NCBI RefSeq assembly: GCF_000403845.2
Contig: NZ_KE159567.1
Span: forward strand, 1,310,911 to 1,374,910
From: Eubacterium sp. 14-2
GTDB lineage: Bacteria > Bacillota > Clostridia > Lachnospirales > Lachnospiraceae
DNA: 64,000 bases
Direction: 5' to 3'
Under the pieces are notes generated by a model that did not search any database, had not been told where the DNA came from, and saw only the letters and a list, made by a program, of their open reading frames with translations. The translations under genes and the position numbers were made by a program. Positions 7,288 through 57,764 of this stretch are shown in pieces (the first letter of the stretch is position 1; each line of letters begins with the position of its first letter).

Positions 7288-7947
7288 ATGGCATTTAACA
7301 TAGCAGTTGACGGGCCTGCCGGGGCGGGCAAAAGTACCATTGCCAGAAAGGTGGCAGAAGCGTTATCCTGTATTTATGTGGACACAGGAGCCATGTACCG
7401 TGCAATGGCACTGTTTTTTCTTCGGGAAGGGATTTTACCGGAAGATGAAAAGGCCATCAGTGAAGCCTGTGACAGGATTACGGTGACTCTTTCCAGCAGG
7501 GAAGGAGAGCAGCAGGTATTTCTGAACGGGGAAAATGTAAACGGGCTGATCCGTACGGAGGAAGTGGGAATCATGGCGTCCCGGACCAGTGTTTATGGCA
7601 GGGTACGGGAAAAACTCACCCAGCTTCAGCGGGAAATGGCCCGCACCACGGATCTGATTATGGACGGGCGGGATATCGGTACCTGTGTGCTTCCGGAAGC
7701 CCAGGTGAAGGTTTATCTGACCGCCAGTGTGGAAACCAGAGGAAAACGAAGGTTTCTGGAATTGCAGGAGAAAGGACAGGAATGTGAACTGGAAAAAATC
7801 TGCCAGGATATCAGACAGCGGGACATGCAGGATATGAACCGGGAAATTTCCCCCTTAAGACAGGCGGAGGACGCAGTGCTGATTGACAGTTCGGATATGA
7901 CCATTGAAGAAGTGGTTGCAGAAATTTTAGCCCTTGTCAGAAAGTAA
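7288..7947 (+). CDS. cmk: Cytidylate kinase
   Basis: Cytidylate kinase phosphorylates CMP and dCMP with ATP in pyrimidine nucleotide salvage and DNA precursor supply. The P-loop GPAGAGKST is at residues 8-16 of the chosen start, and the conserved VDTGAMYRA, MDGRDIGT and IDSSDM segments are present. The length is 219 residues. An upstream ATG at 7276 is in frame, but the ATG at 7288 has a GGAG box at ideal spacing and matches the usual FNIAVDGPAGAGKST beginning, so it is preferred. The gene lies 46 bp before ispH within a conserved housekeeping operon. Confidence 0.95.
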   Translation: MAFNIAVDGPAGAGKSTIARKVAEALSCIYVDTGAMYRAMALFFLREGILPEDEKAISEACDRITVTLSSREGEQQVFLNGENVNGLIRTEEVGIMASRTSVYGRVREKLTQLQREMARTTDLIMDGRDIGTCVLPEAQVKVYLTASVETRGKRRFLELQEKGQECELEKICQDIRQRDMQDMNREISPLRQAEDAVLIDSSDMTIEEVVAEILALVRK

Positions 7948-46516: not shown

Positions 46517-47650
46517 ATGACAAAAATTGATATTATCTCAGGATTTCTGGGGGCAGGAAAGACAACTTTTATCAAAAAAATGCTGGAAGATGTATTTCAG
46601 GGAGAAAAAATTGTTCTGATTGAAAATGAATTCGGAGAAATCGGCATTGACGGTGGATTTCTTAAGGATTCCGGTATTGAAATCAGTGAGCTGAATTCCG
46701 GCTGTATCTGCTGTTCCCTGGTGGGGGATTTTGGAAAAAATTTGCGGGAGGTTATGGAGCGGTTCCATCCGGACCGGATTCTCATTGAGCCTTCCGGCGT
46801 GGGAAAACTTTCCGATGTAATGAAATCTGTGCGGGAAGTGGAAGAAGAAAACGAAGTAAAACTGAACGGGCGCATTACTGTGGTAAATACAGCCAAAGCC
46901 ACAAAACAGATGAAAGCCTTTGGTGAATTTTTTAACAATCAGATTGAATATGCCACGGTAATTGTGTTAAGCCGTACTCAGAATGTGAAACCGGAGCAGA
47001 CGGAACTGGTGGTAAAAGCCATACGGGAAAAAAATCCGGATGGGGCTGTGATTACAACGCCCTGGAGTGAAATTGACGGAAAACAGATTTATAAAGTCAT
47101 TGAACAGCAGAAGTCTCTGGAAGAAGAACTGATGGAAGAACATGAGCATCATCATGAGCATGGAGCGGACTGTACCTGCGGCTGTCATGATCACGAGCAT
47201 GAACACCATCATGAGCATGAACACCATCATCAGCATGGACATGACCACGAGCACCATCATGAACACGACCACGGGCATGAACACCACCATGAGCATAACC
47301 ACGAGCATGGAGCGGACCGTACCTGCGGCTGTCATGACCACGAGCATGGGCATCATCATGGACATCACCATGCAGACGAAGTGTTCACAAGCTGGGGCAG
47401 AGAGACGCCCCATGTATTTACCAGAGATACCATTGAACATGCCATGAAAGCGTTTTGCGATACAGAAGATTACGGTACCATTCTCAGGGCAAAGGGCATG
47501 GTTCCTGCAGAAGATGGAACCTGGATTTATTTTGACATGGTGGACGGTGAATATGAGCTGCGTACCGGAGAACCGGATTACACCGGAAGACTCTGTGTTA
47601 TAGGAACAGATATGGAAGAAGAGAAGCTGGCGGAACTGTTTGGAATATAG
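46517..47650 (+). CDS. G3E (CobW/ZNG-type) GTPase with long His-rich metal-binding insert
   Basis: This is a COG0523 metallochaperone GTPase. The P-loop GFLGAGKTT is at residues 9-17, and the metal-binding CICC is at residues 63-66 within LNSGCICCSLVGDF. Between about residues 205 and 287, roughly 80 residues contain 39 His, arranged as HEHHH/HDHEH runs and two copies of a TCGCHDHEH block. The C-terminal CobW_C domain follows (FCDTEDYGTILRAKGMVPA). Proteins of this group load or store zinc or other divalent metals. The His array is built from short DNA repeats and may vary in length. It is followed 15 bp later by a second G3E protein, so the two are probably partners. Confidence 0.9.
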   Translation: MTKIDIISGFLGAGKTTFIKKMLEDVFQGEKIVLIENEFGEIGIDGGFLKDSGIEISELNSGCICCSLVGDFGKNLREVMERFHPDRILIEPSGVGKLSDVMKSVREVEEENEVKLNGRITVVNTAKATKQMKAFGEFFNNQIEYATVIVLSRTQNVKPEQTELVVKAIREKNPDGAVITTPWSEIDGKQIYKVIEQQKSLEEELMEEHEHHHEHGADCTCGCHDHEHEHHHEHEHHHQHGHDHEHHHEHDHGHEHHHEHNHEHGADRTCGCHDHEHGHHHGHHHADEVFTSWGRETPHVFTRDTIEHAMKAFCDTEDYGTILRAKGMVPAEDGTWIYFDMVDGEYELRTGEPDYTGRLCVIGTDMEEEKLAELFGI

Positions 47651-49540: not shown

Positions 49541-49567
49541 TTAGCACTCGATATAAATGAGTGCTAA
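49541..49567. promoter_or_regulatory. CIRCE operator (HrcA binding site)
   Basis: A perfect TTAGCACTC-N9-GAGTGCTAA inverted repeat lies between the promoter and groES. It is the canonical target of the heat-shock repressor HrcA, whose gene is not in this window. A third half-site of the same sequence lies at 49515-49523. Confidence 0.97.
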
Positions 49568-51701: not shown

Positions 51702-51743
51702 AAAAAGGACTGTAGAAGTATTGTACTTCCGCAGTTCTTTTTG
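51702..51743 (+). terminator. Rho-independent terminator of groESL
   Basis: A stem of about 19 bp with two G-T pairs and one mismatch (51702-51720 / 51724-51742) and a TTG loop ends in a T-run (TTCTTTTTG). Confidence 0.85.
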
Positions 51744-51799
51744 TCATACAGGAATGTCTGTTTTACTGCGGTCTGATAAGTGCAGTATATTCTTTTTTA

Positions 51800-51828
51800 T
51801 TGACAGTCCGGTGATTTTACCATAAAAT
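51800..51828 (+). promoter_or_regulatory. Promoter of the FapA-repeat signalling operon
   Basis: A perfect TTGACA (51800-51805) and TAAAAT (51823-51828) are spaced by 17 bp, 41 bp before the GTG start. Between them and the start lies a seven-codon mini-ORF (ATG at 51849) whose TGA overlaps the GTG. Confidence 0.8.
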
Positions 51829-51868: not shown

Positions 51869-53986
51869 GTGAACAGTCAGCTGATCAGAAAATATGAATC
51901 TATGGGATTTGATAAGGGGCAGATGGAAGAAATCCGACAGGGGCTGGAGAAAGGACTGGATGTATCCTGGTATACTTCAGTAAATTATGACTGGTTTCAG
52001 ATGGAAGAAATCAAAAAAGGGCTGGAACGGGGACTGGATGTATCCTCTTATGCCAAACCTGAAATTTCCTATGACCGTATGCGCCAGATTCGCAAGGGGC
52101 TGAAAGAAGGACTGGATTTGTCCAGACATCAGGAACTGGAAGCAGGATATCTGCGCCAGATTCGTAAGGCAAAACTGGGGCACGTGGATATTTTTTCTTA
52201 TATTGAGCAGGGATATGAGCCGGACCAGCTGGAGGAAATCCGTCTGGGGCTGGAACACAAGGCAGATATCAGCAGGCATTTGATTAAAGAATTTCTGGGA
52301 GAATCTCTGCGTGAAATCCGTCTGGGTGTGGAAGAAGGACTGGATGTGTCTGTTTATGCCAGGATACATTTTGGCTGGCAGCAGATGCGCGAAATCCGAC
52401 TGGGACTGGAACGACGTGTGGATGTATCTCATTATGCAAAAGAACTGTACCGCTGGCAGCAGATGCGTGAAATCCGTCTGGGGCTGGAAGAAGGACTGGA
52501 TGTATCTGCCTATGAGAGCCTGATGTATTCTGCCAGAGAAATGAAACAGATGCGTATGAAAATGCTGGAACAGGTAAAACAGGCCGAACACAGAGATTTC
52601 CAGTTGGAAATGTTGGAGGAACAGGCACGCCAGGCGTCAGAATGTGTGGTAACGGTCAGTCAGGATAAAATGGAAGCCTACATTACGCTGGAGAAAGGAA
52701 CAGTCAAAAGTAAAAATGAAATTATGCGGCTTCTGGCAAAAGAAAATGTGGTATTTGGAATTCGTCAGGATGAAATAGAAAAGAAACTGAAAGAAGCAGA
52801 ACAGGGTACCGTAAGATTTCTGGCGGCAGAGGGAGTGCGGCCGGAACGGGGACGGGATGGATATTATGAATTCTTTTTCCGGACAGGAATTCCGCAGATT
52901 CCGGCAATTCGTCAGGATGGCTCCATCGATTACCAGAATACGGTGTATTTTGAACAGGTGAAAGCCGGACAGGTAATAGCGGTGTATCATGAAGCTCAGC
53001 CCGGAATCGGAGGAAGGATGGTAGACGGAACCGAACTTCCTGCCCAGGGCGGTCAGGAAAAGCAAATGCTGAAAGGAAGAGGATTTCTTCTTTCTCAGGA
53101 TAAAAAGACTTATATTGCAAGGGAATCCGGAAAAATTGAACTGAAAAATAATGAAATTACCATTCAGCCGCTGCTGGTGGTAACAGAAGTGACCATATCC
53201 ACAGGGAATCTGCGTTTCAATGGGAGTATCTGGGTAAAAGGAAATGTGGGAAGCGGCGTGGTAATCCAGTCAAAGGATGAACTCATTATAGAAGGAAATG
53301 TGGAAGCAGCACATCTGCAGGGCGGGAAACGGATTGTAATTAAAAACGGTGTATCCGGCGGCGGTCTGGCTGTGATAGAGTCAGCCGAAGATATCCATGG
53401 TAAATTTTTTGAAAGTGCAACACTGACAGCCAACGGGGGAATTTATGCCAATTATGTGATGAGCAGCAACATGATAGCAGGAAAAGAGATTGTGATTTCC
53501 GGAAGCAAAGGGGCTATTATCGGCGGTAATGCAGCGGCAGTAAATGGAATAAAAGCCCACCATATCGGAAACCGGGCCGGACTTTTGACGAACATCTCTC
53601 TTGGCGTCAGCAAAGCAATGATTGAAAAAGAAGAAGAAGCGGAAATGAAACTGAAAAAGTTTCAGTCTGAGCTGGAAATATTTGAGGAAGCATACAGAAA
53701 GCTCCAGAAACAGTATCCGCCGGAAGTACGCAACGAGATGGAACTGTATCTGAAGGTAGAACAGGCCACTTATATCAAACGCAAACAGATGGAACAGCAG
53801 GTGGAACGTACAAAAGAACTGGAGGAAAAGCGGAACAAAGCAAATGAAGCAAAGATGATGGTATACGGTATCCTGAACGCCGGAACTGTGGTGCAGATGA
53901 ACGGAATGCAGTGGACTGCGGCCAGCTCCGTGAGAAATGTCACAGTCCGCCTGTCTAACAAAGAAATCGGTGTATTCCGGAATTAA
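51869..53986 (+). CDS. FapA (DUF342) protein with N-terminal array of 26-residue repeats
   Basis: This is a 705-residue cytoplasmic protein. Residues about 12-240 hold eight copies, and part of a ninth, of a 26-residue unit with the pattern Q-M-x-E-I-R-x-G-L-E-x-G-L-D-V-S-x-Y-A; copy 4 is degenerate. Residues about 258-570 are a FapA/DUF342 region of Gly-rich beta helix (GNVGSGVVIQSKDELIIEGN, then GSKGAIIGGNAAAVNGIKAH), and residues about 580-660 form a coiled coil. FapA-type proteins bind membranes or polymerise in other systems, but no enzyme activity is known. The GTG at 51869 is chosen; no better start exists. It is followed 12 bp later by a response regulator and an HPt gene, implying a joint signalling role. 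Confidence 0.82.
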   Translation: MNSQLIRKYESMGFDKGQMEEIRQGLEKGLDVSWYTSVNYDWFQMEEIKKGLERGLDVSSYAKPEISYDRMRQIRKGLKEGLDLSRHQELEAGYLRQIRKAKLGHVDIFSYIEQGYEPDQLEEIRLGLEHKADISRHLIKEFLGESLREIRLGVEEGLDVSVYARIHFGWQQMREIRLGLERRVDVSHYAKELYRWQQMREIRLGLEEGLDVSAYESLMYSAREMKQMRMKMLEQVKQAEHRDFQLEMLEEQARQASECVVTVSQDKMEAYITLEKGTVKSKNEIMRLLAKENVVFGIRQDEIEKKLKEAEQGTVRFLAAEGVRPERGRDGYYEFFFRTGIPQIPAIRQDGSIDYQNTVYFEQVKAGQVIAVYHEAQPGIGGRMVDGTELPAQGGQEKQMLKGRGFLLSQDKKTYIARESGKIELKNNEITIQPLLVVTEVTISTGNLRFNGSIWVKGNVGSGVVIQSKDELIIEGNVEAAHLQGGKRIVIKNGVSGGGLAVIESAEDIHGKFFESATLTANGGIYANYVMSSNMIAGKEIVISGSKGAIIGGNAAAVNGIKAHHIGNRAGLLTNISLGVSKAMIEKEEEAEMKLKKFQSELEIFEEAYRKLQKQYPPEVRNEMELYLKVEQATYIKRKQMEQQVERTKELEEKRNKANEAKMMVYGILNAGTVVQMNGMQWTAASSVRNVTVRLSNKEIGVFRN

Positions 53987-53998
53987 GGAGGAAACAGT

Positions 53999-55102
53999 AT
54001 GAACCGTCATAAAATGTTGATTGTGGATGATGTGGAAAGCAACCGTTTAATTCTGGCAGAAATTTTCCGCAGGGAATATGAGATTCTGGAAGCAGCAGAT
54101 GTAAAGAACACACTCCGGATACTGGAAAAAAGTTCCGGAGAGATCGCCGCTGTGTTACTGGACTGGCACCTATCCGATGAGGATGGAAGCAGGGTTCTGG
54201 AAGAAATGATACGGAAGAGATGGATGAACCATATTCCGGTACTGGTGGTTACTGCCGAACAGTCCACAGAAACAGAGAAAAAATGTATTGGCATGGGAGC
54301 CTCTGACATGATACGCAAGCCCTTTGATGCAGATGTGGTCCGAAAACGCGTGGAAAATAATATTTCTCTGTACCAGCATAAGAATCATATGGAAGAAAAA
54401 GTACAGGAGCAGAATCATCTTCTGCGCAAACAGTATGCGGTAATGAAACTGCAGACAGAAAAACTGAAAAAATCCAGCCAGAAGATGATAGATATTGTAT
54501 GTAATATTCTGGAGCACCATTATCCGGAATTTGATGAAAATACACAAATCGTAAGGGAAATCAGCAGAATTATCGGCAGGAAAGTGCAGGCTCATTATCC
54601 GGAATATAAACTGACAGACGCAGATGTGGAAGCCATTGCAGAACTGGCGTCCCTGCGGGATATCGGAAAACTTCTGATATCGGACCATGTACTGTTTAAA
54701 CCGGCAAAACTCACCAGAGAAGAAAAAGAATATATGAAATCCCACACCACCAAAGGGTGTGAAATCATGAAAATGATGAAGGATATTCAGACTTCTGATG
54801 ATCACAGGAAAAGTATGGAAATCTGTCGGTATCACCATGAGCGTTACGATGGAAAAGGATATCCGGAAGGACTGAAAGGAGATGAAATACCGATTTCCGC
54901 CCAGATTGTATCTGTGGTGGATGCCTATCATGCGCTGATCAGTGAACGTATTTACAAACGGGCATATTCCAGGGAAGAAGCATATTACATGGTTCTGGGC
55001 GGCGAATGCGGAATTTTTTCACCGAAGATTATGGAATGTTTCCGTATGTCCAGAAAAGAAATTGAAACAATTGATGCAGAAGAAAGGGAGGAAAAGGTAT
55101 GA
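53999..55102 (+). CDS. Response regulator with degenerate HD-GYP domain
   Basis: This 367-residue protein has a receiver domain at residues 1-120 (acidic pair Asp10-Asp11, phospho-acceptor Asp55 in VLLDWHLSDEDG, Lys107 in IRKPFD), a coiled-coil linker (about 125-160), and an HD-GYP region (about 165-350). The HD dyad is altered to Arg220-Asp221 (SLRDIGKLLISD), and the usual first His ligand is absent near TQIVREISR, while His249, His279-His280 and GYP (287-289, in DGKGYPEGLKGDEIP) remain. Active HD-GYP proteins hydrolyse cyclic di-GMP; loss of metal ligands suggests reduced, altered or purely sensory function. GGAGG precedes the ATG. It overlaps the HPt gene by four bases. Confidence 0.88.
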   Translation: MNRHKMLIVDDVESNRLILAEIFRREYEILEAADVKNTLRILEKSSGEIAAVLLDWHLSDEDGSRVLEEMIRKRWMNHIPVLVVTAEQSTETEKKCIGMGASDMIRKPFDADVVRKRVENNISLYQHKNHMEEKVQEQNHLLRKQYAVMKLQTEKLKKSSQKMIDIVCNILEHHYPEFDENTQIVREISRIIGRKVQAHYPEYKLTDADVEAIAELASLRDIGKLLISDHVLFKPAKLTREEKEYMKSHTTKGCEIMKMMKDIQTSDDHRKSMEICRYHHERYDGKGYPEGLKGDEIPISAQIVSVVDAYHALISERIYKRAYSREEAYYMVLGGECGIFSPKIMECFRMSRKEIETIDAEEREEKV

Positions 55103-55455
55103 ATCAGGAGATAAAAGAAGAATTAAGCGCGGCAGGTGTAAATATGAAAGAGGCGCTGGAGCGTCTGATGAACAATGAAATGCTGTTAGAAAGGCTGCTG
55201 ATTAAGTTTAAGGCAGATAAGAATTTTGAAGGACTGGAAAAAGCGCTGGGAGAACAGAAATATGAAGAGGCCTTTCATTGTGCTCACACCCTGAAAGGAG
55301 TAGCAGGTAATCTGGGAATGGAAAAACTGATGGAAGCAGATATTGTTGTGGTGGAAAAACTGCGCAGCCAGAATTACGATGGCATTGAAACAGACATGGA
55401 GGCAGTGAGGAACGCCTATACCAGCGTAATGGACGTGATTCAGAAAATAGGCTAA
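55099..55455 (+). CDS. Histidine phosphotransfer (HPt) protein
   Basis: This 118-residue four-helix HPt protein has the phospho-accepting His63 in AHTLKGVAGNLGM. The N-terminal helices (MKEALERLMNNEMLLERLLI) and C-terminal helix are complete. It should exchange phosphate with receiver domains such as that of the preceding gene. Start and stop overlap as ATGA, which indicates translational coupling. No histidine kinase gene is adjacent, so the phosphate source is encoded elsewhere. Confidence 0.92.
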   Translation: MNQEIKEELSAAGVNMKEALERLMNNEMLLERLLIKFKADKNFEGLEKALGEQKYEEAFHCAHTLKGVAGNLGMEKLMEADIVVVEKLRSQNYDGIETDMEAVRNAYTSVMDVIQKIG

Positions 55456-56911: not shown

Positions 56912-57764
56912 CTACCCACGAGATTTGGACATTGCTTTCTCGTATAATTCTTTGAGGGATACGCGCTTGTGGTTATAATAGAGTTCAAGAACCGTCATTT
57001 TGTGTTTGCAGTCAGGGCATTCCAGAGGATCATAGCCGAAGGAAGAAAGAATGGCGGTGCGCCATTGGTTAAAACTTCGGTATATGTGATGTTTGCTTTT
57101 GGATATAGCCCGATAGAGTTTTGAATCAATCGCCCGGTGTCTTGCATAGAGTCCGCCATAGCGGATCATTTTAAAGTGTTTTTCCGGGATATGGCGGATC
57201 AGACGTTTGATGAAATCCATAGCCGGGATGGTTTCCTGCACATATTTTTCATCTTCGTGACGGTTGTAGTGGAAAGTAACCATACTGCCATCGTAGCTGT
57301 CGATTCCGGAGGTGGCAATGGGTGGCCGGCCAGGATAACGTTCGATATATTTGATTGCTGTTTTGGGGTCACACAGATTGGGTTTATCTTAATTAAAAAA
57401 ACATACGAGAAACAACACTGATGACAGAATGGAAGAGACAGTTGAGCATGGAACGGTCATACAAAAAGAAATCACGAAGATTTTCATCAATAGTAAAGAC
57501 GCAATGACGATGATGGAGATTAACCAGTTTAAAGGACATACTGGTGGTGCGTTCCATGGAATATTTGTTTCCACAGGAAGGGCAAAAACGGCTGTGACAT
57601 CGAAAAGGAACGAATTTGAGTTTTCCGCAATGAGTGCAGGCGTACATGCCCCCTCCAAAAGAAGGATCACCACAGTTGATCATCCTATCGATATTTTCCA
57701 TCTCAGTATTTCTGGGATGAAGAGTATATTTAATTTCTTCATAATAGTCAGTAAAAATTTTCTG
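56912..57764 (-). pseudogene. IS91-family transposase, frameshifted and internally deleted
   Basis: The N-terminal part (57764-57393) carries the zinc-binding region of IS91 transposases: INCGDPSFGGGMYACTHCGK, FRCHSRFCPSCGNKYSMER and TSMSFKLVNLHHRHCVFTID. It ends early after SVVSRMFF. The C-terminal part (about 57385-56912) resumes as KTAIKYIERYPGRPPIATSG and VTFHYNRHEDEKYVQETIPA, the Y2 transposase region, then GYDPLECPDCKHKMTVLELY. The two parts total about 280 codons against about 400 in intact relatives, so roughly 100 or more central codons are missing. An ATG at 57768 is one base out of frame with the N-terminal part. The gene is not functional. Confidence 0.85.

Follow-up and report, generated by a model that had tools for sequence, protein, structure and literature searches.

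A three-gene unit was examined in a 64,000-nucleotide stretch of the 3.99 Mb genome of the gut bacterium Eubacterium sp. 14-2 (contig NZ_KE159567.1; this whole stretch is called the window below). The first gene encodes a FapA-type protein carrying an N-terminal array of 26-residue repeats (repeat-FapA), the second a response regulator combining a receiver with a degenerate HD-GYP domain, and the third an HPt protein. All genes lie on the plus strand in the order groESL, repeat-FapA, receiver-HD-GYP, HPt and degV, with 12 nucleotides (nt) between repeat-FapA and the regulator and a 4-nt overlap between the regulator and HPt. Open reading frames (ORFs), this spacing and the Pfam domains bear out the three coupled genes proposed in a first-pass annotation. 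The features of the unit, all on the plus strand, are as follows.

51869..53986, +: repeat-FapA gene, 705 amino acids (aa), GTG start (ORF and Pfam)
51917..52534, +: eight 26-residue repeats (residues 17-222), predicted helix-turn units (lag similarity and AlphaFold2)
52649..53152, +: FapA_N domain PF20250, residues 261-428 (Pfam, E 2.5e-35)
53171..53968, +: FapA beta-solenoid domain PF03961, residues 435-700 (Pfam)
53999..55102, +: response regulator, receiver and degenerate HD-GYP, 367 aa (ORF, Pfam and alignment)
54017..54352, +: receiver domain (Response_reg, residues 7-118), phospho-acceptor Asp55 intact (Pfam and alignment)
54497..54982, +: HD-GYP domain (HD_5, residues 167-328), GYP motif present (Pfam and alignment)
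54539..54541, +: Asn181 at the first-histidine position, His in 64/75 family members (alignment)
54656..54661, +: Arg220-Asp221 replacing the His-Asp motif (alignment)
55099..55455, +: HPt protein, 118 aa, Hpt domain at residues 39-106 (ORF and Pfam)
55285..55287, +: HPt phospho-acceptor His63 (His in 40/40 aligned HPt proteins)

Relatives of the unit were collected by scanning a genome collection (one genome per species, 84,980 species) with an alignment of 11 FapA proteins. A regulator gene lies beside at least nine of these 11, but adjacency played no part in the selection of hits. The scan returned 390 relatives and the best 80 were kept, with Lachnospiraceae bacterium 3-1 (L160), A2 (L166) and X68 (L163) among the closest named ones. 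A receiver-HD-GYP gene adjoins repeat-FapA in 78/80 loci (exceptions L212 and L224), and an HPt gene adjoins it in 42/80 (34 times upstream, 8 times downstream). A count of neighbouring families that reached as far as four genes to either side placed the regulator in 75 loci (in 74 of them directly after FapA) and HPt in 38; any other family appeared in at most 10 of the 80. The small differences from the adjacency counts arise because genes were here taken from a single non-overlapping set and clustered by BLAST. A second, evenly drawn sample comprised 40 stretches from 38 of 54 repeat-bearing genomes (of the other 16, seven were already covered and nine were left out), and exclusion of six stretches without FapA left 34 loci; 30 of these have an adjacent regulator and 9 an adjacent HPt. 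Because several contigs are common to both sets (for example L295 and L216), the first and second samples cannot be treated as independent. As a control, a similar regulator or HPt was found beside none of 14 repeat-less FapA genes (up to 1.5 kb on each side). Chance adjacency of FapA and the regulator was rejected, since 78/80 are adjacent despite varied flanks. On this gene order the module is almost certainly real, and the families grouped together in the first-pass annotation do co-occur. Its statement that no system of this composition had been described agrees with our literature search, in which titles and abstract openings of open-licence PubMed Central (PMC) papers yielded no repeat-FapA/HD-GYP/HPt composition.

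The repeat region has a similarity of 1.48 per residue at a lag of 26, compared with a best value of -0.09 in 500 shuffles (lags 5-79). Units start at residues 17, 43, 69, 93, 119, 145, 171 and 197, with six of the seven spacings being 26 and one 24; apart from this shorter spacing, the proposed eight-fold 26-residue repeat joined to a FapA beta-helix is confirmed by lag similarity and Pfam. A repeat hidden Markov model, built from unit starts hand-chosen on the window protein, found eight units in 43 of 81 proteins, seven in 20, nine in 7, six in 7, and between 2 and 11 in the other 4. No Pfam family exceeded its cut-off over the window repeats, the single PDB sequence match had an E value of 0.56, and Foldseek found no PDB fold match to the predicted repeat structure at E <= 0.001. 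The VIA rows for the repeats held mainly designed proteins and TAL-type repeats, with values that stay under the caution threshold that the tool sets for repeats. In the AlphaFold2 prediction each unit has a single 12-residue helix and a short turn (predicted local distance difference test, pLDDT, 95.8; predicted template modelling score, pTM, 0.86), and from the predicted secondary structure and scores we read the repeats as forming a solenoid.

Repeats and FapA are encoded by separate genes in L110 and L268-L272; that these genes stay adjacent argues that the two parts act together. For the repeat-only protein of L260, 88 of the 120 matches listed (out of 714 similar database proteins) carry a FapA domain. 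Elsewhere, a 650-aa protein (L286:50-2002, minus strand) has 22 units of the same repeat with no FapA domain found and housekeeping neighbours by eye; judged by its sequence, the repeat also exists as an independent protein. Repeat matches outside a FapA gene were also seen in the same genus as the window (genome G006, L111, about 7323-7720, minus strand), with neighbours that look like those of a conjugative element by eye. The repeat is a family of its own, undescribed and the most original part of the module; all other domain types are known.

Both FapA domains of the window protein are full-length (FapA_N 121.9 bits, cut-off 27; FapA 159.8 bits, cut-off 31), as in the known flagellar assembly protein FapA (PF03961/PF20250, DUF342 in source names). 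The window protein differs from flagellar FapA in its 26-residue-repeat N-terminus and in having an HD-GYP regulator, and no sigma factor, as neighbour. The FapA of flagellar operons is located with sigma28 (PMC11607428); the window unit instead has groEL before it and degV after it, which makes a classical flagellar FapA less likely and leaves the domain assignment unaffected. A separate FapA gene in the same genome lies downstream of a FliA-like sigma factor (assigned by eye) and resembles that flagellar arrangement. In two further papers, FapA of Vibrio vulnificus is brought to the pole by HubP and linked to glucose (PMC12918733), and FapA binds dephosphorylated EIIAGlc (PMC6877527); our searches of open-licence PMC papers found little on the role of FapA in gut Firmicutes. 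The repeat-FapA protein matched no NCBIfam family, had no PDB sequence relative at E <= 0.01, and its whole predicted structure had no Foldseek match at E <= 0.001. Its FapA solenoid aligns to the C-terminal domain of MinC with a moderate Z score, lower than those of several unrelated beta-helices in the same list. A MinC-C-like solenoid, as modelled, allows polymerisation without demonstrating it. We presume that the solenoid also resembles the beta-helix scaffolds of bactofilins.

To place the module in its cellular context, 396 Lachnospiraceae genomes, each at least 90% complete, were surveyed for the repeat (matched in 54) and for flagellin (present in 206). Flagellin was found in 52/54 repeat-bearing genomes and in 154/342 others (p 3e-14 by Fisher test, which here and below ignores shared ancestry); in the two repeat-bearing genomes without flagellin the repeat matches are weak, the frames measuring 316 and 317 aa. 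A 99-genome panel gave a repeat match in 21 genomes, with flagellin in 21/21 of these and 78/99 overall. Flagellin was also found in all 16 module genomes tested, as were GGDEF matches. From these distributions we lean towards a role for the module in motility. The strongest alternative keeps the same phosphorelay and scaffold and has FapA serving cell shape, division or envelope organisation, with the flagellin link inherited from the lineage. It draws on the alignment to MinC, on the varied neighbourhoods (no flagellar family was recognised by eye among the 16 commonest neighbour families), on the second FapA beside the FliA-like gene with its counterpart in PMC11607428, and on the absence of the repeat from 154/206 flagellin-bearing genomes. 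The presence of flagellin in 52/54 repeat-bearing genomes, the two exceptions being weak matches, and in 16/16 module genomes speaks against it, and we place it on the unlikely side.

The HD-GYP part of the regulator was assessed by its match to HD_5 (84.8 bits, cut-off 27.2) and by a residue comparison across 75 proteins, comprising the window protein together with the adjacent regulators (74 of 78 used; 4 excluded as split or short frames). In HD-GYP domains the HD motif and the first histidine are metal ligands. The window regulator has R220 at the HD histidine, N181 at the first histidine and H311 where 59/75 have aspartate, so that both the His-Asp motif and the first metal-binding histidine are missing, as the first-pass annotation had described. 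It retains E177, D221, H249, H279, H280, D308 and the GYP motif, and in its receiver D10, D11, D55, T85 and K107 are intact. R220 occurs in 12/75 regulators, all from the window's genus and in every one of the 12 same-genus sequences; N181 accompanies it in 10 of these 12, the others having one H and one G. The remaining 63/75 regulators beside repeat-FapA keep His-Asp. Degeneracy of the HD-GYP was therefore rejected as a hallmark of the system, and a functional phosphodiesterase was probably part of the ancestral module.

Selection was measured by pairwise ratios of nonsynonymous to synonymous substitution (dN/dS), leaving aside any pair in which dS was saturated or very small; this retained 24 of the 45 same-genus pairs for each domain, from a set without L167 and the window. 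A separate comparison that included the window also indicated strong constraint. In the window's genus the HD-GYP part had a median of 0.037 compared with 0.094 for the receiver, and in three clades with intact His-Asp the HD-GYP medians were 0.038 to 0.051. Constraint on the altered domain is thus similar to that on its His-Asp counterparts, which fits a binding role rather than decay but does not by itself demonstrate a new function. The earlier view of a non-catalytic HD-GYP thus stands for the window's genus, where residue loss and strong purifying selection point to it with good confidence, and fails as a general trait. That the window domain is a cyclic di-GMP (c-di-GMP) receptor is a tentative suggestion. 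Alternatively, the Arg-Asp HD-GYP might have kept phosphodiesterase activity, having rearranged its metal site or acting on a different cyclic dinucleotide. This reading could call on the retained ligand positions and GYP motif listed above, on the strong constraint, and on the solved HD-GYP relative 5z7c, titled a 3'3'-cGAMP phosphodiesterase. It is made improbable by the loss of two histidines present in 64/75 and 63/75 family members and by the fixation of R220 in 12/12 same-genus sequences.

We take the window regulator to be RpfG-like. Among solved receiver-HD-GYP regulators, 4mcw shares the receiver and HD-GYP (E 5e-25), with GYP and most ligand positions kept in the window protein; the HD substitution is visible in the same alignment, and the window's genus differs from such regulators in Arg-Asp, in Asn at the first histidine and in having FapA as partner gene. 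The best NCBIfam match, to NosR-family c-di-GMP phosphodiesterase regulators (NF053512, 134.9 bits), falls far under the 400-bit cut-off, and a FapA partner is absent from that model. A further loss of the HD histidine (LDIGM) was seen in a FapA-linked regulator encoded upstream of FapA (L294:4903-5958, plus strand).

The residues needed for a phosphorelay are in place: His63 of the HPt protein, whose Hpt domain and histidine are as the first-pass annotation gave them, and Asp55 with D10, D11, T85 and K107 of the receiver. Its report that no kinase is present also holds, in that the genome's 47 HisKA matches all lie outside the window (the genome search covered HisKA and no other kinase family) and no kinase appeared among ten selected neighbour proteins. 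Some relatives have a kinase in the same gene run. Kinase, HPt, FapA and regulator are contiguous in L203, L206, L213 (kinase by profile only) and L216 (kinase without a receiver); HPt-FapA-regulator-kinase is the order in L198, FapA-regulator-kinase in L194 and L298, and kinase-FapA-regulator-HPt in L171 and L291. Adjacent kinases in some relatives are hybrid kinases. The kinase before FapA in L291 (1767-5456, plus strand) carries an HD_5 domain whose sole such motif reads F-D-I-G-K instead of H-D.

Presence of HPt also follows the state of the receiver. Among 74 full-length regulators, HPt is adjacent to 37/59 with Asp55 and to 1/15 without it (Fisher p 9e-5), the sole HPt-adjacent loss being an Asp-to-Glu change in L167. 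In the other 14, which have no adjacent HPt, Asp55 is replaced by Lys, Arg or Asn (L196, L201, L202, L215, L223, L225-L228, L230, L232-L234 and L236). Since some relatives hold a kinase in the same gene run and HPt adjacency tracks the receiver aspartate, the genes probably belong to a phosphorelay, in line with the phosphorelay output first proposed. Regulator-HPt adjacency is also common to hybrid-kinase/HPt/HD-GYP-regulator sets of Lachnospiraceae and their kin, two of which (L126 and L131) include a HisKA-HATPase-REC-REC kinase; these sets differ from the module in having no FapA, no repeats and an intact HD.

A third explanation holds that HPt is a mere neighbour and that FapA and the regulator alone make up the true unit, with small donors perhaps phosphorylating it, if it is phosphorylated at all. 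HPt is indeed non-adjacent in 38/80 loci, four same-genus genomes with the pair or its remnant elsewhere have HPt at a separate groEL-HPt-degV site, and Asp55 is lost in 15/75 family members. Set against this are the recurrence of HPt on either side (34 loci upstream, 8 downstream) while other neighbours vary, its tracking of Asp55, and the kinases that join some loci; we consider this explanation quite improbable.

The window's genus was surveyed in 29 genomes (its own and 28 others). An intact FapA-regulator pair was found in 13, adjacent in 13/13, with HPt adjacent in 8 of the 13. The pair is divergent beside an HtpG-like gene (by eye) in G022, G003, G013 and G002, as is the remnant in G020, a truncated locus in which the FapA start and the regulator end alone are left; the separate groEL-HPt-degV site belongs to G022, G003, G013 and G020. 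Short scars lie between groEL and HPt in G015 and G025, and no pair was found in 13 other same-genus genomes, some being incomplete assemblies. Judging from the scars and the remnant, part of the genus probably descends from an ancestor with the order groESL-FapA-regulator-HPt-degV. The least credible explanation, that the operon is decaying in this genus with His-Asp loss as the first step of regulator loss, finds a basis in the truncated, scarred and pair-less genomes and is very improbable given pairwise HD-GYP dN/dS of 0.02-0.07 and the other ligand positions kept in intact members.

Two chaperone neighbourhoods can be distinguished in the genus, one beside the HtpG-like gene (L100, L101, L102, L103 and the remnant L109, by eye) and one after groESL. 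In the HPt-FapA-regulator locus of G050, a GGDEF protein is encoded directly after the regulator (L105:2974-4770, minus strand).

A candidate promoter precedes the unit in the window.

51800..51828, +: sigma-A type promoter-like site TTGACA-N17-TAAAAT (11/12 consensus bases)

The whole scanned region has 12 promoter-like sites compared with 10.1 in shuffles; this one is kept as TTGACA and TA(A/G)AAT in the window and six other aligned groEL-linked loci. The single match in the window to CIRCE (controlling inverted repeat of chaperone expression) lies upstream of groES at 49541-49567. With its own conserved promoter-like site, the three-gene unit need not depend on the groES/CIRCE promoter, and the possibility that the three genes are part of a heat-shock groESL operon is weakened. 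The scan found no plus-strand terminator after groEL; by eye, an imperfect hairpin followed by T lies near 51705-51745. Elsewhere in the window, a CobW-family gene (46517-47650) has a long His-rich stretch that appears tandemly repeated by eye, and a transposase remnant (56912-57701; Y2_Tnp match in the 56912-57283 frame, the rest by eye) lies between degV and a MatE gene.

Taken as a whole, we propose with a probability of about 0.5 that the three genes form the output half of a multistep phosphorelay acting on a FapA-type scaffold in flagellated Lachnospiraceae. On family knowledge and gene linkage, His63 of HPt would be phosphorylated by a histidine kinase whose gene lies elsewhere in the genome, directly or through the kinase's own receiver, and HPt would then hand the phosphate on to Asp55 in the receiver of the regulator. 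The near-universal adjacency of regulator and repeat-FapA suggests that the one acts on the other: the receiver would govern how the HD-GYP engages repeat-FapA, with the N-terminal helical repeats as a docking surface and the beta-solenoid as the scaffold end. In most relatives the His-Asp HD-GYP probably hydrolyses c-di-GMP locally, at the scaffold; in the window's genus the domain would bind without catalysing, and would probably serve either as a receptor for c-di-GMP or in protein interaction. The module likely tunes how flagella are assembled or where they are placed, alongside the separate FapA encoded next to the FliA-like gene. The sequences show a conserved module, its domain composition, the lost residues, purifying selection, linkage to kinases in relatives and the association with flagellin; from these we infer phosphotransfer, docking, c-di-GMP binding and a role in motility. 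A more specific version, in which the undescribed repeat docks the HD-GYP regulator on a FapA polymer, phosphorelay and c-di-GMP together set the site or number of flagella, and the enzyme of this genus has become a pure c-di-GMP receptor, is unlikely to hold in every part.

Several observations weigh against the proposal. HPt is missing from beside FapA in 25/34 evenly sampled loci as well as in the 38/80 noted above, and in 5/13 intact same-genus loci, with no close HPt orthologue found in two of those genomes (G014 and G002). A kinase-like gene is present in 11/80 and 6/40 stretches only, not all of them contiguous and some on shared contigs. The receiver aspartate lost in 15/75 family members means that phosphorylation is not universal, and the 14 HPt-less losses need about three changes on the tree. 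The low dN/dS of the HD-GYP is found where His-Asp is intact too, so it shows constraint and not new function; a pTM of 0.50 leaves doubt about how the domains of repeat-FapA are arranged; and 154/206 flagellin-bearing genomes are without the repeat.

Beyond what the first-pass annotation described, the module is associated with flagellin, is joined by kinases in relatives, and has a repeat that is a family of its own and sometimes a separate gene beside FapA. The module connects phosphorelay, HD-GYP domain and FapA scaffold in a way that is concrete and can be tested, and it adds an undescribed repeat family. Its sister loci, with intact or lost His-Asp and receiver aspartate, form a natural series in which the HD-GYP as an enzyme can be set against the HD-GYP as a receptor. 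If the proposal is true, this genus would have a natural pseudo-phosphodiesterase beside sister systems with intact His-Asp.

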